Assembly (NCBI GenBank): GCA_018969115.1
Contig: JAGWYZ010000008.1
Coordinates: 1 to 40,407 of the forward strand
Source: Chloroflexota bacterium
GTDB lineage: Bacteria > Chloroflexota > Anaerolineae > J036 > Brachytrichaceae
Direction of reading: 5' to 3'
Length of the DNA stretch: 40,407 nucleotides
The position numbers were made by a program, and so were the translations under genes. The notes under the pieces are model-generated. The model was not told where the DNA came from. It saw nothing but the letters and a program-made list of their open reading frames with translations, and did not search any database. Positions 15,220-36,517 of the stretch are shown here, piece after piece; positions within the stretch are counted from its first letter, which is position 1; the number at the start of each line of letters is the position of its first letter.

Positions 15220-15248
15220 TTGACAAATTGTAGATTTAATATTACACT
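15220..15248 (+). promoter_or_regulatory. Candidate sigma-70-type promoter of the eda operon
   Basis: TTGACA at 15220-15225 and TACACT at 15243-15248, separated by 17 bp. A second TTGACA lies at 15205-15210. The resulting start site would fall inside the palindrome at 15255-15277, as expected for repression. Confidence 0.55.
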
Positions 15249-15254
15249 CTCATC

Positions 15255-15277
15255 ATAATACTGTCAGGCTGTATTAT
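15255..15277. promoter_or_regulatory. Palindromic operator candidate for the GntR/FCD regulator
   Basis: Perfect 7-bp arms ATAATAC and GTATTAT around a 9-bp centre (TGTCAGGCT). It sits just after the -10 of the eda promoter in the divergent region between the regulator and its likely target operon. The position fits a repressor site; the identity of the binding protein is inference. Confidence 0.55.
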
Positions 15278-15309
15278 AGGTTGTGTTTTCTCCTCCCTTC
15301 TTTTTGAAC

Positions 15310-19450: not shown

Positions 19451-19951
19451 ATGGCCTCTTATTTCTCGTCTATCACCGATGCATAAGCTGAGTTGATATA
19501 GCTTTTCCCCCTGTTTTTTGTGGCAACGGCTGACCCCAGCATGGCTGATGATGGCAATGTTGGCCCAATTAATACCTCGCCAAGCGGGGGTGTGCTGCTG
19601 CATATACTCAATCGCAATCATGTTGCGTTTCTTGATTATGTGGGCAGCGGCAACGAAACCGCAAAACACACCCGAGCCGGTAGCCCCATCACCCTCATGG
19701 TTTGCGCGTTTGACGAAGCCGATGCTGCCATTGTGCGGTTATATGGGTGGGCCAAGATTACGACCTTGGCGCAATCAGAGTTGGCAGACCAGCTTTTACA
19801 AAATGGTGACTCAGACCTCAACGCGCGCCCTCGTCAAGTGATCGAAGTGATGGTGGATAAAACCAGCACCAGTTGCGGCTATGGTGTGCCGGTAATGAGT
19901 TTGGTGCGCCAGCGCCGCACCACTGATCGGGGGCAGCGTTATAAGACCTAA
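19451..19951 (+). pseudogene. PNPOx-family flavoprotein gene with two in-frame stops
   Basis: A continuous frame from ATG 19451 reads MASYFSSITDA-stop-AELI-stop-LFPLFFVATADPS and continues to 19951. Stops are TAA at 19484 and TAG at 19499. The deduced protein fits the pyridoxamine 5'-phosphate oxidase-like family: SITD at the N-terminus, FFVATADP, INTSPSGG, FLDYVGSGNETAKH, LMVCAFDEADA, IVRLYGWAKI and SCGYGVP near the C-terminus. Both stops would be Gln codons before a C-to-T change. A downstream GTG at 19520 could start a shortened protein, but it would lose the first strand of the barrel. The usual SPKG motif is SPSG. Probably inactive. Confidence 0.8.
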
Positions 19952-19988: not shown

Positions 19989-22900
19989 ATGACGCTTATT
20001 AATTCTCCGGCTCTCACATTTCAAGACCTTATTCTAAGGTTACATCAGTTTTGGTCCAGCAAAGGTTGCTTGATCTGGCAACCCTATAATCAAATTGTGG
20101 GTGCTGGCACCATGAACCCAGCAACATTTTTGCGCGTGCTTGGCCCAGAGCCTTGGGATGTCGGCTATATTGAACCTTCGGTGCGCCCCGACGACGGGCG
20201 TTTTGGCGAAAACCCAAACCGGCTTTACACCCACACCCAGTATCAGGTGATCTTGAAGCCGACCCCCGAAAACTCGCAGGAGTTGTATTTAGAAAGCCTC
20301 GCCGCCATTGGCATCGACCCTAGCAAACACGACATTCGTTTTGTTGAAGACAACTGGGCACAGCCCGCCATTGGCGCATGGGGCTTGGGTTGGGAGGTAT
20401 GGCTCGATGGACTCGAAATCACCCAATACACTTATTTTCAGCAGGTTGGTGGCATCACCCTCGACCCCATTCCGCTTGAGCTAACTTATGGGTTAGAGCG
20501 CATTGCAATGGCACTGCAAGGCGTAAAAAATGTGTTTGATCTGAAGTGGGACGAAAAACGCACGTATGGCGATGTCAAATTGCAAGACGAAATTGAACGT
20601 AGCCAATACGCCTATAACCAAAGCGATGTCGAATTTCTGTATGAGCAATTTGATGCCATTGAAGCCGAGTGCAAACGCACTGTAGCGCGCGGCTTGGTGG
20701 CCCCAGCCCACGACTTTGTGTTGCAACTGTCGAATGTGTTTAACCTGCTCGACACACGCGGCACAATTGGTGTGACCGAGCGCCAACGCTTTTTGGGCCG
20801 CACCCGCGACCTCGCCCGCACTGTAGCTGCCGCTTATGTCAAACAGCGCGAAGTGATGGGGCATCCTTGGCTAAAGGCAAGTGCTGAGTCTAAAGTGCTG
20901 AGTCCTGAGGTTACACAAATACCTAACTCTCAGAACTCAGAACTCAGAACTCAGAACTTATTATTTGAAATTGGGGTTGAAGAATTACCCGCCCATAACG
21001 TGAGCGAAGGCAAAGCCCAATTAGAAAAATGGCTTCCCGAAATATTAAAAGAAGCCCGCCTCATGCATGGTTCCATTCGCGTGCTAGCCACCCCGCGCCG
21101 CTTTGCGGTGTTGGTGAATGAGGTTGCGTCCCAACAAAGCACTCTCGAAGAACTCGCCAAAGGTCCTGCCACCAAAATTGCCATTGGCCCCGATGGCAAG
21201 CCCACCCAAGCCGCGCTTGGCTTTGCCAAGAAATTTGGCCTTGGGGCTGAGGCTATTAAAGTATTTGACGATGGCAAACAAAGTTATGTGTATATCGAGC
21301 GCCGCGAAGAAGGTAAACCCGCCATTGAAGTGTTGCGTAGCGTGCTGCCAAACCTTATCGCCAAGCTCAGCTTTGAGAAAACCATGCGTTGGAACAGCAG
21401 CAATGTGGCCTTTGCTCGTCCCTTGCAGTGGTATGTGGCTTTGCTCGGTCAACACATCATTCCGTTTGAATACGCCAATATCACTAGCGGCAATATCAGC
21501 ACCGGCCCACGCGGCGAAGGCTCGCCGCGCTTTATGGTTGACCACGCCGACGATTATGATCGTTTGTTGTCAGCCCAACACATCATCGGCGATGTCGCCA
21601 CCCGCCGCGCCGAAATTCAACGCCAACTTGCTACGGTTGCCGCTAGCATTGGCGCACAAGTCGAGGCTGACGATGATTTGCTTGACGAAGTGACCAATTT
21701 AGTGGAGCAGCCGGTTGCCCTGCTTGCCAAATTCGACCCAGCTTACCTCGAAATGCCACCCATCATTTTGACCAAAGTGATGCGCAGCAAACAACGCTAC
21801 TTTACCTTGATCGATGCCAAGACTGGTGCAATGCGCCCCAACTTCATCACTGTACGCAATGGCCCCGACCGCGATAACGACCTTGTGGTGGCTGGCAATG
21901 AAAATGTGGTGTTTGCGCGTTTTGCCGATGCATCGTATTTCTATCGCCACGATCAAGAAAAGCCATTGGCCGAGTATGTACAAAAACTTGAATTGCTCAC
22001 GTTCCAAACCCAACTTGGTTCAATGCTCGACAAAACTAAACGCATCGAATCGCTGGTTGAAGCCATTTCGGTGCAATTAACGATGTCACCTGCCACCGCC
22101 CAAACCGCCAAAACTGCCGCGCATCTGTGCAAAGCCGATCTTGTCACCAGTATGGTGGTCGAAATGACCTCATTACAAGGGACAATGGGCCGCGCTTATC
22201 ACCTCAGGCAAGGTGGCGATGAGGCTGTGGCCGATGCCATCGCCGAGCATTATTGGCCGCGTTTTGCGGGCGATAAAGTGCCGCAAACCCCCGCCGGTTT
22301 GGTGGTGGCTTTGGCTGACAAGCTCGATAGTATTGCTGGTTTGTTTGCCGTTGGCCTTGCACCCAAAGGCAGCGCTGACCCATTTGCGCTGCGCCGCGCC
22401 GCCATTGGGGTGGTGCAAGGATTGGTGCAAAACGGGGCTTCATTTTCATTGTGGGCTGGGTTGCGCAGCGCCGCTGCCCGTTTGCCCATCAGAATGAGCA
22501 ATGATGCACTTGACGCTGCCCATAAATTTATTGTTGAACGGCATCGCGCCGCTTTGGTCGAAGCTGGGTATCGTCATGATGTGGTGGATGCTGTTTTGAG
22601 CGTGCAAGGTGATAACCCGACCCGCGCCCAACAAGCTATCGAACAACTCGCCGATGCGGTGAAGACCGCTGGTTGGGACAAGACTTTGGCAGCTTATGCC
22701 CGCTGTGCCCGTATCGTGAAGAACCAGCCAATAGAAGCTGCAACAACGGTTGATAGCGATCCAGCCACGGTAGCGTTGGCCCAAGCCGTCGTTGGGTTAG
22801 GGGCATCTAGCAATGTCGAAACGCTCATTGCCAATTTGCAAGATCTTGTTGCGCCTATCAGCCATTTCTTTGACAAGGTTATGGTGAATGTGGATGATGC

Positions 22901-22991
22901 TGGTTTACGCTTGGCACGTCAAGTGCTGCTGTGGCGCATTGTGGCGCAAGCGCATGGCATTGCCGACTTGAGCAAGTTAGAAGGGTTTTAG
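19989..22991 (+). CDS. glyQS: Glycyl-tRNA synthetase, alpha and beta chains fused
   Basis: 1000 aa. Charges tRNA-Gly. Residues 1 to about 296 are the alpha chain (catalytic, class II): [93 protein letters not shown]. Residues from about 324 are the beta chain: [15 protein letters not shown], the HD-like domain [47 protein letters not shown] and a C-terminal anticodon-binding region. Most bacteria encode two separate chains; fusions are known in some lineages. The linker (about residues 297-323, ending in NSELRTQN) is encoded by a heptamer inverted repeat at 20876-20959, unlike the surrounding gene. The start is supported by the -10 at 19974. Confidence 0.97.
20876..20959. repeat. Heptamer inverted repeat inserted in frame within glyQS
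   Basis: Left half: AAGTGCT and GAGTCTA-type units, twice. Right half: four tandem GAACTCA heptamers, the inverse of AGTTC-type units. It is 84 bp (a multiple of three) with no stop, translated as the alpha-beta linker. It is the same design as the operon-gap repeats at 16000 and 17047, with different unit sequence. Confidence 0.75.
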
Positions 22992-23017
22992 CTTGTTTGT
23001 TTTGTTCGAAGTAATAT

Positions 23018-23168
23018 GTTATCTAAAAAAATAAGATAGGTGAAACAAATTTTTGTCAAAATTGCGATATGACCTTTGGCAGCATGGGCAAAACCCGTGC
23101 CGCCAAAGGTCATATCGTGATTTTGATATTATATCTTTGGGGTTTATCCCTAATTATGGCAAAGATCT
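23018..23168. mobile_element. Degenerate long-form miniature element (copy in reverse orientation) with 33-bp hairpin
   Basis: Read on the minus strand it has CATAATTAGGGATAAACCCC on one side and AAAATTTGTTT, then TTTTTTTAGATAAC on the other, matching the long-form layout. Hairpin arms are 23056-23088 and 23094-23126 with four transition mismatches. Ends have drifted and no target duplication is visible. It fills most of the gap after glyQS, and its boundary is uncertain by a few bases. Confidence 0.6.
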
Positions 23169-23228
23169 TCGCTATTTTCCATGTCTTTATGTCAGCATAG
23201 AAATGTGAAACATAGCAGTTTCATCCTC

Positions 23229-23234
23229 TATAAT
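23229..23234 (+). promoter_or_regulatory. -10 TATAAT, leaderless start of the DUF4058 gene
   Basis: A perfect TATAAT ends 6 nt before the ATG at 23241. This also argues against the earlier in-frame start at 23181. Confidence 0.5.
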
Positions 23235-23240
23235 TTTATT

Positions 23241-24065
23241 ATGCCTTCACCATTTCCGGGGATGGATCCCTATCTCGAAAGCCCGCACATTTGGGAAGAT
23301 TTTCACACAAGCCTTGCGGCTGAAATTCGCAATACCCTAATGCCTAAATTGCGCCCAAACTATATTGCTGCTATTGAGCCACAAGTGCAATATGACGAAG
23401 TGCTTATCCATGACATTCCCATTACACGGCATAAAATTCATCCCGATGTTGGCATTTTTAAGCCGCGCCAACCCCAAGACAACATAACACCGACAATGGT
23501 TAAGGCTGTTAGAGAACCTATATTAATGCCTATTCCTGCTCCTTATCGAGCCAAAATTGCTATTAATGAACCGGCTAAGCGTTTGAGTATCGAAATCCGT
23601 GAAACACTGACAGGTGAGTTGATTACGGCCATCGAAATTTTATCGCCGGTTAATAAACGCCCATCGCATGAAGCGTTTGCTGCATATCAACGCAAATTGC
23701 AACATTTGTTAATGTCGCAAGCCAATGTGATCGAAATCGATTTGTTGCGTGCGGGTATTCGCAGTGAATTGCTTGATCCTGTGCCTGAATTTGGCTACCG
23801 GATTATTTTGAGCCGCAATGTGCAACGTCCCGATACCGATGTATGGGCTTTTGGTATTCGTGACCCTCTGCCGACGATTGCGGTTCCGTTACGGCCACCG
23901 CATCCTGATATTGATCTCGACCTCGGCGAAGTTGTACGCCGTGTCTATGATTTGGCTGGGTATGACATGCGTGTTGATTACGAAGATAGCCCACCGAAAC
24001 CAGCGCTAAGTGATGCGGATATGCGTTGGTTGCAGTCACATTTATCTGCTGCCGGAGTGCGATAA
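23241..24065 (+). CDS. DUF4058 family protein
   Basis: 274 aa from ATG 23241, giving the family's characteristic start MPSPFPGMDPYLE; a longer reading from 23181 is not supported. Further conserved parts: WEDFHTSLAAEIRNTLMPKL, RPNYIAAIEPQVQYDE, HPDVGIFKPR, an acidic/Lys segment resembling a nuclease-like core (SIEIRETLTGELITAIEILS, then PVNKRPSHEAFAAYQRKLQ), and VIEIDLLRAG. DUF4058 is common in cyanobacteria, planctomycetes and Chloroflexota, often as many paralogues, with no established function. A weak resemblance of EI(x)xP(x)NK to PD-(D/E)XK-like cores is my inference only. The next gene starts 8 bp downstream, so the two are probably co-transcribed. Confidence 0.88.
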   Translation: MPSPFPGMDPYLESPHIWEDFHTSLAAEIRNTLMPKLRPNYIAAIEPQVQYDEVLIHDIPITRHKIHPDVGIFKPRQPQDNITPTMVKAVREPILMPIPAPYRAKIAINEPAKRLSIEIRETLTGELITAIEILSPVNKRPSHEAFAAYQRKLQHLLMSQANVIEIDLLRAGIRSELLDPVPEFGYRIILSRNVQRPDTDVWAFGIRDPLPTIAVPLRPPHPDIDLDLGEVVRRVYDLAGYDMRVDYEDSPPKPALSDADMRWLQSHLSAAGVR

Positions 24066-24625: not shown

Positions 24626-25318
24626 TTAATACTGCTGATACTTGGCATTGCCAGACTTGACCATCAGATCATTGACGTTAATGTATTTATCTTTATTTTT
24701 AGGGTCCTCAACCCATAATTCGGCTAAATAGCACCCATATTTTTCTTGGTCATCTTTAAATGTTTCGATCACGATGCTTTTGTCTAAAACCAAACTGCGC
24801 AAAAAATCACGCGCTTTCTCACCGGCAGCATGTGATTCACCTTTATATTCGGGGGCATTAATACGCAGTAAGCGCAATTTCTCACCATGCACCCAATTGT
24901 GCATACCCAAGTCAATATCAACCGTGATTGTGTCGCCGTCATAGACCTCACGCACAACGGCTTGATAAAAGTATAAAGCGCTTGCCAAGGTTTTGGCTGT
25001 CACCACACTTGAAGTTGCACCATCGGCTTTGGGCGCACGGTCTTGAGGGGGAGCTTCGGCTGGTTCGGTTTCGGCTGGTTTTTTCGTTTTGCTTGGTTTG
25101 CTCTCTGGTTTTTCGGGGCTTGTGCGTGGTGGGGCTTTGCTGCGTGATTGACTTGGGGCTGGAACATTTTTTTTGCCCAATACACCACTTGATTTAAGCA
25201 CATCTTCGAGCAGATCACCCAGCGAATCGAGAATACCAGTTTGTCTAAGGTTGGCGGTTGGGTCGGCTATGCTTTTGGCATCGGGGTCGTTGGCTTGTGA
25301 GGCTTGTTTTGATAGCAT
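24626..25318 (-). CDS. Thermonuclease (SNase)-like protein with a catalytic Arg replaced by Cys
   Basis: 230 aa from ATG 25318 (a TTG at 25336 is possible). Residues about 1-95 are low complexity, rich in Pro, Lys, Glu and Ser. Residues about 110-230 are the staphylococcal-nuclease OB fold: VVREVYDGDTITVDIDLG (Asp of the calcium site), LRLLRINAPEYKGE (first catalytic Arg and Glu; the usual Asp is Asn, as in many relatives), EKARDFLRSLVLDKSIVIE. The third catalytic position reads EKYGCYLAELW, where active members have YGRxLA. The codon is TGC, one C-to-T step from Arg CGC. No convincing signal peptide is present. It may be a nuclease-dead SNase fold or a recently damaged gene. Confidence 0.85.
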   Translation of the reverse strand: MLSKQASQANDPDAKSIADPTANLRQTGILDSLGDLLEDVLKSSGVLGKKNVPAPSQSRSKAPPRTSPEKPESKPSKTKKPAETEPAEAPPQDRAPKADGATSSVVTAKTLASALYFYQAVVREVYDGDTITVDIDLGMHNWVHGEKLRLLRINAPEYKGESHAAGEKARDFLRSLVLDKSIVIETFKDDQEKYGCYLAELWVEDPKNKDKYINVNDLMVKSGNAKYQQY

Positions 25319-25336
25319 AAGTATATTTTGGCACAA

Positions 25337-25521
25337 ATTTTGTATCTAAAGTACAAATCGCTAACATCTTCGAGGTCGTATCAAGAAACGCGGCTACAAC
25401 GTTAAACTGCGCTAACAACGTCGAGGTTTGCGCTGATTTCGGCATCATGTCTTTATCCCACCCGTTATAATGTAAGTGTGCATATTTAGCACTCGCAACC
25501 CTGCGATACATATAAAAATAG
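25337..25521. other. Intergenic DNA upstream of the nuclease gene
   Basis: No gene is convincing here. A minus-strand open frame over 25245-25838 crosses the miniature element and has no family resemblance. I see no further structure. Confidence 0.4.
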
Positions 25522-25675
25522 GTGTCTTCTCGATAATTAGGGGCATTTTCAAAAGACGTAATGCCAAATTCACTATCACTTCGTATTTGGAGGGGGAAAA
25601 TCCCTTTCCAAACACGAAGTGATAGTGAATTTGGCAGAAATTTGTTTGATTTTTCACTGTTTATTGAGAGGATAC
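25522..25675. mobile_element. Miniature inverted-repeat element, long form (copy 4), 8-bp target duplication
   Basis: 154 bp with imperfect ends GTGTCTTCTC and GAGAGGATAC. It is flanked by AAAAATAG (25514-25521) and CAAAATAG (25676-25683), 7/8 identical. The interior has a perfect 23-bp hairpin stem (arms 25562-25584 and 25614-25636, base TGCCAAATTCACTATC) topped by a second small stem (TTTGGA/TCCAAA). TTTGTTT and TTTATTGAGAG on the right match the other copies. Confidence 0.85.
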
Positions 25676-25870
25676 CAAAATAGGCCTCGCTAAAGCCACA
25701 CTGCCGAATGAGCGGTATCGTGTGGCTTTGGCTTGTAATTATTTGGGCAGCGTGGGTGCAAAATGGCAACAATAAATCTATTTGTTGTTTAGGCTGTAGG
25801 TTTTCATTGAAGCATCTGTATCTGTAACATAAAGCCATAGCATGAGCAACAAACTTTTGGAGATGAACAA

Positions 25871-29447: not shown

Positions 29448-29565
29448 TTAGAGCAAATTACTAAAAGATGAGGGGCCGATTTCACGATCTATCTCCCACA
29501 GCAACGCTGTGGGAGATAGATCGTGAAATCGGTAAAATCATTCATCAACTCGAAATCTACTCTAA
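29448..29565. mobile_element. 118-bp inverted-repeat unit containing a perfect 27-bp type B palindrome
   Basis: Outer ends TTAGAGCAAATT (29448-29459) and AATCTACTCTAA (29554-29565) are inverse complements at 10 of 12 positions. The centre has exact 27-bp arms (29476-29502 and 29506-29532, starts CCGATTTCACGATC) with a 3-nt loop. Flanks match those of the 12544-12602 palindrome. No target duplication was found. It lies between divergent genes, so it is not a terminator. Confidence 0.65.
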
Positions 29566-29686
29566 GAAAGAAGAAAGTTATTTTCTTATTTTTATCGCAA
29601 ACTGTTGGATAAGTATTGACACGACATGAGACTTTGGTGAACTTAATTTTAAGGAATCATAATGCCGTCGATACGTCTTTTGTGAA

Positions 29687-31117: not shown

Positions 31118-31279
31118 TTTATTTTTAATAACATTTGGCGTGTTTTTATTCGGGCTTTTACTGTCGGGCAGAACTAATATTTTGAAAAACTGTCAGTTAT
31201 CAGGCTTAAGATATACCTCAAAATCTAACCACAGATAAGAGGAATAAAAATGAGTGATAACTGATGAGTGTATCGTGCC

Positions 31280-31913
31280 ATGAAAAGAGTGCAGGGACAT
31301 GCAGCGCAACATCTAAACACTTTAGCTGGATTTGTCACTCAGACTATACAAAGCAGAAGCTGGCAATTGTCTAAAATAGTAGCCAAAACACCAGATGAAA
31401 CAAAAGGTGAGAGCAGAGTCAGACGCCATACGAGATTCTTAAAGCATAAAGAAATCGATAATAATACATATTATTTAAATATATTAAAACCATATTAAAA
31501 CGATGAGCGCAAGCTTAGCTATAGACAGCAGTGATATGGGGCGACATTGCATCACTTTGATGATTAGTGCGATTTATAAAAAACGTACATTGCCATTGGT
31601 TTAGATGGTGGTGGAAGGTAAGAAAGGACATTTTTCAAATGAAACCCATATTGTACTGTTGAAGCGGGTGCAAACACTGTTGCCTAGAGGAAGTGATGTC
31701 ATTTTAATCGAGGATGGTGTCTTTGATCGTGTCGTCGTGTCGAATTGCAACAAACGGCACATGGATATAAGATATAATTAAGAATACGTGTATCGTACAG
31801 CGAAAAGCAGTCAATTATGGGGTGAAGGCAAAAAGCTAAGTATGCAAGTTGCTCCGGATGAATGTAAGCAATGGGATGGGGTAAGATTCTCAGGGCAAGC
31901 CCCAAAAAAATAG
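31280..31913 (+). pseudogene. Decayed DDE transposase gene of IS4-like type
   Basis: Fragments in order: HLNTLAGFVTQTIQSRSWQL, then ESRVRRHTRFLKHKEI (frame 2). After a frameshift near 31500: SLAIDSSDMGRH (first catalytic Asp region), LMISAIYKKRTLPLV-stop-MVVEGKKGHF, LLPRGSDVILIEDGVFD (second Asp region), RYN-stop-EYVYRTAKSSQLWGEGKK. Stops are TAG at 31602 (where relatives have Trp), TAA at 31779 and TAG at 31911. The C-terminal third with the catalytic Glu is gone. No terminal inverted repeats or target duplications were found. Codon pattern and content match DDE transposases of the IS4 superfamily. It cannot supply transposase activity. Confidence 0.75.
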
Positions 31914-31931
31914 AACATTAGTTTTGTGTGG

Positions 31932-31977
31932 TATCAAATGTCAATTATTAATCATTAACCACTCACCATTAACCATT
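31932..31977. repeat. Heptamer repeat tract just before the ADP-ribosylglycohydrolase-type gene
   Basis: Units ATTAATC, ATTAACC, ACTCACC, ATTAACC run up to the start codon at 31978. Translated in frame they add a spurious INHSPLTI-like extension, so this tract decides the start. A possible inverted half (GAGTGAT, AACTGAT, GAGTG) lies at 31250-31269 on the other side of the transposase remnant. Confidence 0.6.
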
Positions 31978-34077
31978 ATGACAACACTTCCTTCAGATTA
32001 TGCCCAACGTGTGTATGCTGGTTGGCTAGGCAAATGTATTGGCGTGCGCTTTGGCGCACCGACCGAGAGTCTGTGGTACAAAGATATCAAGACCCTATTC
32101 GGTGAACTAAAGTATTATCTGCAAACCGACCCCCGTCTGTTTCACCCTGATGATGATTTGACTGTGCCCTTACTCATGCTACGCACGCTCGATGATTATG
32201 GCGATGACCCACCAGTAGCCCGCTTTGGCGATGTTTGGCTCAACACTATCGCCGATGGACGCGGCACATTATGGTGGGGTGGCTATGGTATCAGCAGCGA
32301 ACACACCGCCTATATGAATTTGCAAGCTGGTATTCCTGCGCCACTTAGCGGAGCCATTGCCACCAATGGCCCTGTCATCGCCCAACAAATTGGTGGGCAA
32401 ATTTTTAGCGATACTTGGGGCCTCATTTGCCCCAATAACCCAGCCCGTGCTGCCGAATTGGCTAAACGCGCCGCCGAGGTCAGCCACGATGGCTGGGCTG
32501 TGCATGGGGCCATGTTTATTGCGGCAATGGATGCCATCGCCTTTAGCGCCAAAAATGTGCGCGAGGTGATCGAGGGTGCGCTCAAACACATCCCCGCCGA
32601 TTCACGCTATACCCAAGTGGCGCGCGAAGTGATGGCGTTTTACGATGCCAACCCAACCGATTGGCATGCTTGTTACGACTGGATCTATCATCATCACGGC
32701 TATCACCATTACCCGGGGCATGTGCATGTCATCCCCAATGCCGCGGTGTGTGTGATGTCGCTGTTATATGGTGAAAACGACTTGGTGAAAACCATGCAAA
32801 TTGGCAATATGGCGGGTTGGGACACCGATTGTAATGTTGGCAATATGGCCTGCACCGTCGGTATTATGCGCGGTATCGCCTCCATCCCCGATGCTTGGCG
32901 CAGCCCGCTCAACGACTTTTTTACACTGGCCTCGCTGACGGGCAGCCGCAATATGATGGACGTGGCCAGCGCCGCTCGCGAATTCATTCGCCACGGTCAT
33001 CGCCAAGCCCAATTGCCCGAACCCGCCCCCCAAGCGCGGTACACCTGGGAATTTGCCGGTAGCACCCAAGGCTGGGTGACCATTAACAGCGGTTTGCATG
33101 TGCAACGCCTAGCCGAGATTGTAAGCGTTGCGCAGACCAACGATGTGACTGGCGCGAAGGGGGCCTTGCGCCTCACCGCCGCCGATTTTTTCAATCGCCG
33201 CCAAATGGGGGCTTATACCCGCACCTACATTCGCCCCGCCGAGCTTGACGGCAACAATTATCAAGGCACCTTCTCGCCCAGCATTTACCCGGGTCAAACC
33301 ATCACGTGCCGTATCATGGCGCACCCCAATGCGCTGCCCGACCTCATTGCCAATGTGTTTGTAAAGAATGGCAATCTCGCTGCCAATGATGAGACCAGCC
33401 TCGTGCAATCACCCGGCCTCAAGCTCATCCCCGGCCAATGGCAAAGTATCACTTGGCGCATTCCGCCCATGATCGGTGCGTGTCTGTCGCAAGCTGGTGT
33501 GCTGGTCACTTGTCATCACGCGGCCAAGGCCAACGAGGCTGTGTATGTGGCCGATTTTGATTGGGGTGGCAAGCCTGATTTCAGCTTCGACTTTAGTCGC
33601 GAGCGTATCGAGACCAATGGCAGCAGCCAATGGACCTATTTGCGTGGCTTTTGGTCGCTAGAGGGCGATGCCTATGTAGGCAGCGGGGTTGGGCAAAATG
33701 AGAGTTATAGCGGCGATATCGCTTGGCGCGATTACACGGCCTTTGCCAACCTCACACCCATCAATGGCGCGGCCCATATGTTGCTGGCGCGGGTACAAGG
33801 CGCAATGCGCAGCTACGCTCTGGCGCTGTTGCCCGACAAATTGGCATTGCTCAAAAATAATCACGGCTACACCGAGGTCGCGTCTGTGCCGTTTGAATGG
33901 GCGCATGGGCAGGCCTACACCCTTGTGCTGGTGGTGAATGGGGCTGAGTTGGTGGGGTCGTGTGGCGATGTGACTGTGCGCTGGCACGACGACGCGCCCT
34001 ATCTCAGCGGCATGATCGGCCTCGCCAACCAACGCGGCTGCCGCACCGCTTTTAGAGCGGTTGGGGTAGGGGCGTGA
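31978..34077 (+). CDS. ADP-ribosylglycohydrolase family protein with C-terminal beta-sandwich region
   Basis: 699 aa from ATG 31978 (start set by the heptamer tract). Residues about 1-345 are the all-helical ADP-ribosylglycohydrolase fold: YAQRVYAGWLGKCIGVRFGA, the metal-binding acidic cluster HPDDDLTVPLLML, GTLWWGGYGISSEHTAYMN, IFSDTWGLICPNNP, EVSHDGWAVHGAMFIAAMDA, and the C-terminal metal site GWDTDCNVGNMAC. Family members remove ADP-ribose from proteins or small molecules, but long members like this one are of unknown substrate. Residues about 365-699 are beta-rich, probably two carbohydrate-binding-like or LamG-like modules (FSFDFSRERIETNGSSQWTY begins a repeat). No signal peptide. It is an intact gene amid pseudogenes. 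Confidence 0.85.
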   Translation: MTTLPSDYAQRVYAGWLGKCIGVRFGAPTESLWYKDIKTLFGELKYYLQTDPRLFHPDDDLTVPLLMLRTLDDYGDDPPVARFGDVWLNTIADGRGTLWWGGYGISSEHTAYMNLQAGIPAPLSGAIATNGPVIAQQIGGQIFSDTWGLICPNNPARAAELAKRAAEVSHDGWAVHGAMFIAAMDAIAFSAKNVREVIEGALKHIPADSRYTQVAREVMAFYDANPTDWHACYDWIYHHHGYHHYPGHVHVIPNAAVCVMSLLYGENDLVKTMQIGNMAGWDTDCNVGNMACTVGIMRGIASIPDAWRSPLNDFFTLASLTGSRNMMDVASAAREFIRHGHRQAQLPEPAPQARYTWEFAGSTQGWVTINSGLHVQRLAEIVSVAQTNDVTGAKGALRLTAADFFNRRQMGAYTRTYIRPAELDGNNYQGTFSPSIYPGQTITCRIMAHPNALPDLIANVFVKNGNLAANDETSLVQSPGLKLIPGQWQSITWRIPPMIGACLSQAGVLVTCHHAAKANEAVYVADFDWGGKPDFSFDFSRERIETNGSSQWTYLRGFWSLEGDAYVGSGVGQNESYSGDIAWRDYTAFANLTPINGAAHMLLARVQGAMRSYALALLPDKLALLKNNHGYTEVASVPFEWAHGQAYTLVLVVNGAELVGSCGDVTVRWHDDAPYLSGMIGLANQRGCRTAFRAVGVGA

Positions 34078-34100
34078 TGGCTTTTTTATGCCATCACGCC
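34071..34100. terminator. Hairpin overlapping the ADP-ribosylglycohydrolase-type gene stop
   Basis: Exact 11-bp arms GGCGTGATGGC and GCCATCACGCC with loop TTTTTTAT. The stop codon lies in the left arm. A second, shorter hairpin follows at 34243-34264 (CAAACGTGCT / AGCACGTTTG). Confidence 0.6.
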
Positions 34101-34311
34101 ACCTTGCGCGGTCGCTCAGTCGCCGACGTTGCTGGGGCTTTGCATGGGGGCATTTTTTTCTATAGACAAGTTAATCTTGAGCGTTTTTCTTTCGGCTTAG
34201 ATTTGCGTATGCCTGCCTGTGAGTTTCAAGATCTGATAAATTCAAACGTGCTAAAGCACGTTTGCCGCAGGCTTTACTTGTGGTTGGGGATTAGCTTATG
34301 AGGACCTTGCA
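34101..34311. other. Intergenic DNA between an intact gene and a pseudogene cluster
   Basis: A 75-codon open frame (34074-34301) overlaps the upstream stop and two hairpins and has no recognisable family. Apart from the hairpin at 34243-34264 I see nothing here. Confidence 0.4.
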
Positions 34312-34683
34312 TTACTTACCCATCGCCAAGATCAGGCCGCTGACAAAGGGAATAAGCCAAAGAAACCAGACAAGCAAGCTAAAACGGTGAAAATTGTGAA
34401 CGGCATCCTCGCGTTTTAATACCAGCACCACCGTTGCCCAGATGGCATGAACAATCATTAAGATGATCGCGGCTAGACCTGTAAGCACGTGTGAGTTAAA
34501 TGAAAACGAACCAGCGATTTGACCCATCGGGGGTGTGCCAAGTGTGTCAAAGATTAGCCCAAGCCAAAAGAAAATCAAATGCCACGACTTTAGTCACCCG
34601 ACAATTTTCTCACCCCATACCGTGATGGTGTAAAAAGTGAGGGCTGAAACCATAGAGAGGATTGCGATTGGTAAAAGTGACAT
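34312..34683 (-). pseudogene. TIGR03987-type small membrane protein gene with an in-frame TGA
   Basis: From ATG 34683 the frame reads MSLLPIAILSMVSALTFYTI, then TVWGEKIVG, a TGA at 34594-34596, and continues without shift as LKSWHLIFFWLGLIFDTLGT to 34312. The whole (about 123 aa) matches a family of four-helix membrane proteins with WGEK near the start, GQIAG.FSFN and VHAIWATVV in the middle and WLIPFVSG near the end. TGA replaces what is likely Arg (CGA). TGA is a normal stop elsewhere in this window, so recoding is unlikely. A palindromic operator-like site lies upstream. Confidence 0.75.
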
Positions 34684-34722
34684 TTTGTTCTTTTCTTTCA
34701 TTATTGATTAGTATTTTTTTAT

Positions 34723-34742
34723 ATTAGTCAATATCGACTAAT
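34723..34742. promoter_or_regulatory. Palindromic operator candidate upstream of the TIGR03987-type pseudogene
   Basis: Perfect 7-bp arms ATTAGTC and GACTAAT around AATATC, with a further half-like TTGATTAGTA at 34705-34714. Size and symmetry fit a TetR- or MarR-type repressor site. No such regulator gene is in the window. Confidence 0.45.
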
Positions 34743-34855
34743 AAATTTATTGTATATGGTTTTGCGAGCAGCATTCATTTATTGTGTGCCGCTTAACTTC
34801 GTGCACAAAATTGGCAAGTAAATGTGATTGCCGCATTTTTCACCTGCATCATTGA

Positions 34856-35793
34856 CTTTCACGGGCCGATGTGAGTGGTGCGGATTTTAGCGGCACGAAT
34901 TTGGCTGGGGCGCGCTTTATGCTCAGCAAGTAAGGCAAGACACAGACAGCACACACTTCCTATATGCTAACTTCGTTGAAGCAGACTTCTCTGTCACCAG
35001 ATTGTATTTTGTCGATTTCTGCTATACCAACCTTAATGGTGTGAATTGGGTCAACGTTCAAGAGCTTGAACAAGCGAAATTTGATAGCTATTACCTCAAC
35101 ACTGCTGCTTTGCGTACCCTCGCCATTCATCGCGACGGGCGCGGACAAACTTACGATGGCCTCAACCTGAGTGGCCTTAATTTGGTGGTGGCGCAAGTGC
35201 AGGGGGCCAGCTTTGTCAGCGCCAACTTAAACGATGTGAATTTGCAAGCCGTCGACTTGCGCGAAGCCGTGCTGAAACAAACCCAACTGGATGGCGCAAA
35301 CTTGAGCACGGCAAATTTGAATGGCGCGACCATTGAGGATTGGGGCATCACCGTCAAAACCCAGCTCGATGACATTCGCTACACCCATGTGTATATGTGG
35401 GCGGCGGGCGCGGGGATAACAAACCACCTGTGCAAACCTGATAACGAGAACGAGGTCTACGAGGTCTTTGCCGAAGGCGAATTTGCCGAGTTTATCCGCC
35501 CGCTCACCGATACGCTTGATCTGTATCATAGCCAAGGCGTTGACCCGCGCGTCATGTCGGCGGCTATCAAACACATGTCCGAGCGTTATCCCGAGGCTGG
35601 GCCGCAGATTGTGGCGATGGAGCGACGCGGTCAGTATGGTTTTAATGTGCGGGTGCAGGTCACGACCGAGGCCGACAAATCAGCCCTCAGTGCTGATTAT
35701 TTTGCCAAATACAAACAATTCAAGGCCCTCGCCGAGGCCGAAAAACAAACTTTAATAGCGCGGCTTGATGTAAATATGATCAAAGCGCGATAG
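34856..35793 (+). pseudogene. Pentapeptide-repeat protein gene with a decayed 5' end
   Basis: An upstream fragment (34862-34932, RADVSGADFSGTNLAGARF, then a TAA) has clear pentapeptide repeats in one frame. The reading continues in another frame from about 34952 (ANFVEADFSVTRLYFVDF) through the open part 35002-35793, with repeats such as LNLSGLNLV, ASFVSANLNDVNLQAVDL, ANLSTANLNGA. The C-terminal 150 aa are a non-repeat helical domain (PLTDTLDLYHSQGVDPRVMS). So at least one frameshift and the loss of a start. A residual protein from a downstream start is possible. Pentapeptide proteins form right-handed beta helices; no function is assigned. The 3' end overlaps the convergent ureohydrolase remnant by 42 bp. 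Confidence 0.65.
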
Positions 35794-36432
35794 TGTTGCC
35801 AGCACCGTATCAATGACCTGTGCAGTGCCCAGTTGGTCAATCTGTTTAGACGAAAACATCTGCACCAGATTGGCGTTAAAAAATGCCAATTCATCCGATT
35901 CAATCGAGCGAATACCCAAGAAGTAGATATTTTCAACGCCACCGACGGCCTTTAAGTCCAAGGCACGGCGTTCGGTGCAGCCGTGCGCAAAACGGTTGCC
36001 GTCCATCTCATCACACAGGTCAAAATGGGCATCGATATGAATGATGCCCAATGAACCCGTTATCACTTTGTCAACCTTGCGCATCACCGGAATGGTGGTG
36101 GAGTGATCGCTGCCCAGTATGATGAAGAATTTGCCCATCACTACCACCTTGGCTACCGCCGTTTCAATTGTTTGCCAATCGCCCATGTCAAAATTGCCAA
36201 GGTCACGAATGTTGAGATCGGCAAACGATTTAAAATTTTCGGTGGTTGGCGAGATGGTTTAGGTGATGTTGCGAATGGCTTGTGTGCCATAGCGCATACT
36301 GGCGCGAAAACTTGTGCCGCCATCAAAAGGGATGCCAAACATAACAATATCGGCCTGCACGATCGGCAGGTTTGGCTTGTTTAGCCCTGCCCACAACTTT
36401 GGGTTGCTGATGATGTTGGCGCTGTCGTTCAT
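35752..36432 (-). pseudogene. Agmatinase/arginase-family (ureohydrolase) gene, nonsense-mutated and 3'-truncated
   Basis: From ATG 36432: MNDSANIISNPKLWAGL, VMFGIPFDGGTSFRASMRYG, TQAIRNIT, then TAA at 36259-36261. The same frame continues TISPTTENFKSF, ILGSDHSTTIPV (first Mn-binding His), GIIHIDAHFDLC (DAHxD metal motif), GNRFAHGCTERRAL, IYFLGIRSIESDE and ends HIYIKPRY. Family members continue with a second Asp-rich metal motif (xDxDxxDP) which is absent, so the last quarter is missing. The break falls where the convergent pentapeptide gene ends, suggesting a deletion or rearrangement junction. Inactive. Confidence 0.8.
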
Positions 36433-36443
36433 TTTGATGCATG

Positions 36444-36517
36444 TGTAGAAGACGCGCCACCGGCGCGTCTTCCGTCCCTGCCGAATTGAAAAGACGCGCC
36501 ACCGGCGCGTCTCTACA
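36444..36517. repeat. Tandem GC-rich hairpins (two copies of the same palindrome)
   Basis: Two copies of GACGCGCCACCGGCGCGTC (36451-36469 and 36493-36511), the first with arms extended to GAAGACGCGCC/GGCGCGTCTTC. They are bounded by TGTAGA on the left and TCTACA on the right, so the whole is also an inverted repeat. It lies between the aminotransferase stop and the ureohydrolase remnant. Likely a dispersed intergenic repeat. Confidence 0.7.

Follow-up and report, generated by a model that had tools for sequence, protein, structure and literature searches.

The window analyzed here is a stretch of 40,407 nucleotides (contig JAGWYZ010000008.1) from the draft genome of a Chloroflexota bacterium (GCA_018969115.1, hereafter G000), which is assembled in 472 contigs totalling 4.6 Mb (94% completeness). 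Within the window, positions 31280-36432 hold four broken genes and one intact gene. Comparisons were made with a sister species (G003) at ~7% DNA divergence from G000 and with an outgroup (G001) ~20% away. An initial annotation of this DNA had described four genes decaying side by side; the four are indeed decayed, but an intact gene encoding a 717-aa ADP-ribosylglycohydrolase lies among them.

The first of the broken genes (31280-31910, forward strand) is, judged by its homology to an intact IS4 transposase, a relic of an IS4-family transposase that survives in two frames. Two stops interrupt it, TAG at 31602-31604 and a TAA, and the initial reading of a tryptophan turned into TAG is in keeping with the alignment: both stops lie opposite Trp in the intact IS4 transposase of Candidatus Chlorohelix allophototropha (Chloroflexota, WP_341467879.1), to which the two relic pieces are 37% and 39% identical. 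The TAA requires two changes from TGG. Unlike its intact relative, the window copy is decayed and is without the portion after residue 225 of 364, past which no alignment was obtained. The second piece scores 36.9 bits (E 2.2e-9) against NF033591, below the curated cut-off of 152 for the whole protein. A search of eight genomes, G000 included, found no further copies of the relic, and plasmid relatives of the transposase were sought by DNA comparison and none were found. At 31156-31236 there is a probable IS end remnant, of which an 81-base copy, 88% identical, is located at 15226-15306 of G000 contig C271; the match to G003 ends at 31157.

The intact gene (31924-34077, forward strand) belongs to the ADP-ribosylglycohydrolase family and encodes 717 aa from a TTG, with an alternative ATG start at 31978. 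It shares 79% DNA identity with a locus on G001 contig C290, where the gene context differs. Heptamer tandem repeats of the CCATTAA type (31943-31977, forward strand) stand directly 5' of this ATG, which is in frame with the gene. Tandem arrays with a period of exactly 7 are abundant in the genus, with 53 in 333 kb of G000, 90 in 434 kb of G003 and 82 in 305 kb of G001, while those same stretches hold 0-5 arrays for each of the periods 5, 6, 9 and 10, and 8-11 for period 8. The arrays are built from several different units, with G000 examples also on contigs C179, C124, C99 and others. Many end just 5' of the ATG of a long ORF (20 of 53 in G000, 35 of 90 in G003, 27 of 82 in G001), compared to 4.5, 8.0 and 7.1 expected from random placement. 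They resemble the TAACTGA repeats that precede start codons in Beggiatoaceae (PMC4679880), and may merit separate study. Between the intact gene and the next pseudogene is a dispersed repeat element with a short hairpin (34145-34275), with copies of 84-85% identity on G000 contig C410 and G003 contig C29. A different element of ~120 bases, at 29448-29570, has a near-perfect long hairpin in its computed fold, and the matches listed include dozens of copies from G000 and G003 and two or more from G001. A search of Rfam over the window gave no match above the gathering score, for this hairpin element or elsewhere.

On the reverse strand, 34312-34683 is a pseudogene of the HsmA family (TIGR03987), with a single TGA at 34594-34596 interrupting a frame that is otherwise open across 123 codons. 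With X placed at the stop, the translation scores 143.9 bits against TIGR03987 (cut-off 78.2, E 2.2e-42), which places it in the family; the TGA makes it a pseudogene of that family. Among 40 genomes the gene was found in three, these being G000, G001 (87% identity) and G006 (58%). The residue at the stop is Arg in both relatives, so the arginine initially proposed for this position stands; the CGA codon proposed for it is less certain, the G001 codon being CGG. With the stop codon excluded, comparison with G001 gives a dN of 0.07 and a dS of 1.68, the latter near saturation, so that the dN/dS of ~0.04 is a rough ratio. The low dN relative to dS suggests that HsmA was strongly constrained until recently, and the pseudogene is probably young. 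The presence of the gene in only three of 40 genomes suggests that it is dispensable in this group.

The remaining two pseudogenes face each other. The pentapeptide-repeat gene (34854-35793, forward strand) had been credited with a frameshift, and a change of frame is present, the two surviving pieces being in different frames; as the sole lesion, however, it falls short. Relative to the G001 ortholog the start region is lost, with the first ~23 codons unalignable, a TAA at 34931-34933 stands opposite AAA, 59 bases replace 624, and the C-terminal EAD7 domain (PF19960) is gone. This reading was assembled from BLAST segments and translations, as the MAFFT alignment misplaced the first piece. The G001 ortholog (contig C308, stretch L083, 3848-5710, minus strand) is a 620-aa open frame that comprises pentapeptide repeats and an Ala/Val/Phe-rich stretch encoded by repeats of the GCATTC/GCAGTC type, and that ends in an EAD7 (effector-associated) domain. 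The opposing gene (35755-36432, reverse strand) is a ureohydrolase pseudogene of the agmatinase/arginase superfamily. With X at its stop it matches Pfam Arginase (PF00491) at 138.7 bits (cut-off 22, E 3.5e-40), which is a superfamily match that covers profile positions 1-207 of 280 and thus, along with the stop, leaves the domain incomplete. The TAA (36259-36261) is present as first annotated, accompanied by truncation of the 3' end at the pentapeptide junction. Its proposed origin from CAA finds no support in the three homologues alignable at that position (31-34% identity), which have His, His and Thr; these were the usable rows at the stop, most others having taken the wrong ORF. An attempt to polarize this stop was dropped, all homologues being at most 34% identical. 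Because the facing 3' ends of the two genes meet at ~35755-35793, a single deletion is suggested to have taken both.

The surroundings of these genes differ between the genomes compared. The alignment of G003 to the window spans 7462-31157; it is broken by several gaps, and its segments are each 90-95% identical. Contig C50 of G003 follows the window through 31157 before carrying other genes for 4.6 kb. From their translations, we take these to be a 274-aa membrane-type ORF, a 431-aa flippase-like ORF, a LacI-type regulator and the start of a substrate-binding protein. The match resumes at window position 36506, within a pair of palindromes (CGCGCCACCGGCGCG, 36441-36516), on a separate contig (C47) that begins exactly there; since this side of G003 is a contig end, the breakpoint is seen at the 31157 side only. 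The G001 counterparts of the ADP-ribosylglycohydrolase, HsmA and pentapeptide genes, the three genes of the block that can be aligned, are spread over three contigs. The breakpoint in G003 and the scattered context in G001 together point to a mosaic block that rearrangement either put in place or left behind, and its edges carry the IS remnant on one side and the palindromes on the other. Elsewhere in the window, 23002-24051 contains most of a DUF4058 gene which is absent at the same place in G003 (129 bases there) and has alignable DNA in G001.

We consider it very probable that this is an ordinary zone of gene turnover, in which a rearrangement mosaic holds genes that died by the usual routes, with a modest AT-ward shift of the lineage on top. 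A rearrangement with its breakpoint at 31157, beside the IS4-type relic and potentially caused by the insertion sequence, would have brought or left the mosaic block between 31157 and ~36506. Non-essential genes of the block may then have died through decay of the insertion sequence, deletions of 3' ends (pentapeptide and ureohydrolase), a change of frame and nonsense changes, in the order that we infer here. The nonsense changes would have arisen mostly via C:G to T:A transitions, which are common in bacterial mutation, and the AT-ward shift relative to G003 would be superimposed on these events.

With so many contigs in the draft, any one stop might reflect a consensus error or the allele of one strain, and the otherwise good conservation of HsmA against G001 would suit such an explanation for its lone TGA. 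Single errors do not explain the transposase, ureohydrolase and pentapeptide genes, nor a further broken gene named PNPOx in the initial annotation, which carry at least two lesions each. That some of the stops are assembly errors or minority-strain alleles is very unlikely. The so-called PNPOx gene (19451-19951, forward strand) has two stops near its start, TAA and TAG, where G003 has CAA and CAG in an open frame of 166 aa. Five of the six stops for which relatives suggest the former residue fit a C:G to T:A change (two in PNPOx, one in HsmA and two in the transposase); the misfit is the pentapeptide TAA. By the genetic code, any transition that turns a sense codon into a stop is a C:G to T:A change. 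Calculated from ORF codons in 27 stretches of G000, the expected share of C:G to T:A among nonsense changes is 0.22 at flat rates, 0.67 under the sister spectrum and 0.81 under that of G000 itself, and the probability of at least five in six is ~0.36 at a share of 0.67 and 0.67 at 0.81. Because the code and the sister spectrum already predict mostly C:G to T:A, the stops say nothing on an unusual process. A set of stops that are all C:G to T:A follows almost inevitably from the code and the usual bacterial bias, and should not be taken as a sign of a repair defect.

The substitution spectrum of the lineage was therefore read from aligned DNA rather than from the stops. The 27 stretches (333,421 bases) were picked around anchors from hit lists and are a non-random sample; 20 of them, from 17 contigs, aligned to G003 (57 segments, 171,893 columns), and the other seven, without an aligned G003 partner, were left out. 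Changes were polarized with G001 at 33,902 sites with conserved neighbors in all three genomes. On the G000 branch versus the sister branch we counted 704 versus 416 C>T changes, a 1.7-fold difference, and 206 versus 258 T>C changes, with the reservation that parsimony with an outgroup ~20% distant may misassign some sister T>C as C>T in G000. The remaining classes are 55 versus 46 (C>A), 55 versus 54 (C>G), 10 versus 13 (T>A) and 31 versus 29 (T>G). In 19 of the 20 stretches, transitions at four-fold sites are in excess in the AT direction. Unpolarized transitions number 3568 versus 2281, AT-ward in 18 of 19 stretches, and unpolarized W/S transversions are also AT-shifted (560 versus 412, p 2.3e-6, 14 of 19 untied stretches). 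The AT-ward shift of the lineage relative to its sister is thus real within the sampled stretches, in coding and non-coding DNA alike, and it goes beyond what a plainly ordinary account of the locus would hold. The initial annotation had proposed a C:G to T:A-rich spectrum and a check of it; on these stretches, independent of the stops, the proposal is confirmed at the level of the lineage, and it is the stops that fail as evidence for it.

The cause of this shift is less clear-cut. A purely deamination-based cause, as first suggested, receives no clear support: the unpolarized W/S transversions shift too, and the polarized ones are flat. Selection on codon usage looked plausible, as two-fold sites hardly shift, and was set aside when four-fold sites and non-coding DNA no longer differed on trinucleotide matching (odds ratio 1.04, p 0.69). 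A small difference separates four-fold from other third positions (odds ratio 1.20, p 0.013). A methylated-cytosine motif was likewise rejected, as inspection by eye of the best 30 rows revealed no single dominant pentamer context. It is possible, though we hold it somewhat doubtful, that the shift reflects a change in fixation rather than mutation, through a weakening of GC-biased gene conversion or of selection for GC. Such a change would account for transitions and unpolarized W/S transversions both moving AT-ward, for four-fold and non-coding sites behaving alike at matched trinucleotide context, and for the lower T>C count on the G000 branch. It is at odds with the somewhat greater shift of transitions than of transversions (1.56 versus 1.36 at p 0.047 when two flanking bases match on either side; p 0.027-0.22 with other flank lengths) and with the flat polarized W/S transversions in the smaller outgroup set, and the context dependence of the shift, with its weakness before T (87 versus 69 C>T), looks mutational. 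The alternative that the mutation process itself changed after the split strikes us as unlikely; here C>T at ~1.7 times the sister's level, weak only before T, would be an early stage of natural GC drift, accompanied by a UDG gene interrupted at a contig end, with its other flank moved, and a mutY that was not found, with the stops as a small by-product. A sister pair with a different AT/GC balance could serve to test whether GC drift begins at the level of mutation or of fixation.

The initial annotation had also invoked relaxed selection together with cytosine deamination under weakened repair, perhaps in a shrinking genome. The raised C>T, the four-fold AT-ward excess in nearly all stretches and the flat polarized W/S transversions would be in keeping with lost repair, whereas the shifted unpolarized transversions would not. 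Among the repair genes that had been singled out, the frames of MutS1 and MutL are open in G000, mutY was not found, and the uracil-DNA glycosylase gene is represented by its first part. A search for the PF03167 (UDG) family came up empty in G000, against 23 of 25 genomes with a match, and of the 501 bases in the UDG piece taken from the sister ~430 are unmatched in G000. A match to the initial portion of that gene sits at the very end of G000 contig C337, open to the contig edge, and the other UDG flank, an M32-peptidase-like gene on contig C48, has different neighbors than in the sister. UDG loss as the cause was set aside on account of this open first part, although the remainder may have been lost. 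Beside it on C337 (stretch L105, 256-1375) is a gene resembling that of a histone deacetylase, which carries two disrupting lesions, a stop and the deletion of one base, and is open in G003. For mutY, 17 of 25 genomes have a match over the cut-off; G000 does not, and neither do seven others. Three pieces of the sister's mutY neighborhood, mutY included, have no match in the G000 contigs, which may reflect a gap in the draft or a loss. A long-standing loss of MutY is unlikely because C>A is not clearly raised.

General relaxation or a shrinking genome shows no sign in the data. With 126 genes tested each way, two G003 genes are broken in G000 and three G000 genes are broken in G003, three of these five cases being weak owing to a doubtful ORF (window 25245-25838), a join of fetched pieces on G003 contig C47 (L116) and a run-in at a fetch end (L111). 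The threshold behind the 126 genes missed PNPOx, which would add one more disrupted gene in G000. A finer comparison found events in 19 and 21 genes, many of them near gene ends or as paired indels. One gene in the window (19989-22991), taken from its translation to be a glycyl-tRNA synthetase, has a run of small indels relative to G003 at ~30% of its length, perhaps a variable linker. Changes at codon positions 1 and 2 number 355 in G000 versus 321 in the sister, against 614 versus 459 at four-fold sites (Fisher p 0.054), so that the ratio is if anything lower here, in a test of relaxation made rough by the inflation of the four-fold count through the AT-ward shift itself. The genome size lies within the 4.2-5.3 Mb span of the genus. 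Taken with the open repair frames and the C>A count, these results make it highly improbable that selection was relaxed and that weakened repair produced a deamination bias while the genome shrank, and none of the three elements of that proposal (relaxation, reduced repair, shrinkage) finds support.

The preferred reading, that of an ordinary turnover zone, agrees with what is known from other bacteria. Hershberg and Petrov 2010 (PMC2936535) found C/G to T/A transitions to predominate in all five clonal pathogens examined. Likewise, C>T on both strands is the commonest polarized change on both branches here, with the difference from the pattern described there that two close sister species diverge ~1.7-fold in C>T. 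As in ordinary bacterial pseudogenes at variable sites associated with insertion sequences or rearrangements, mixed lesions (stops, a frame change, deletions and an IS relic) stand beside intact genes, and the sister carries other genes at the site. Against such pseudogenes nothing here is distinctive, the pseudogene load being no higher than that of the sister among the 126 genes tested each way. The cluster is real and routine, a known kind of dead-gene cluster in a rearranged zone marked by an insertion sequence.
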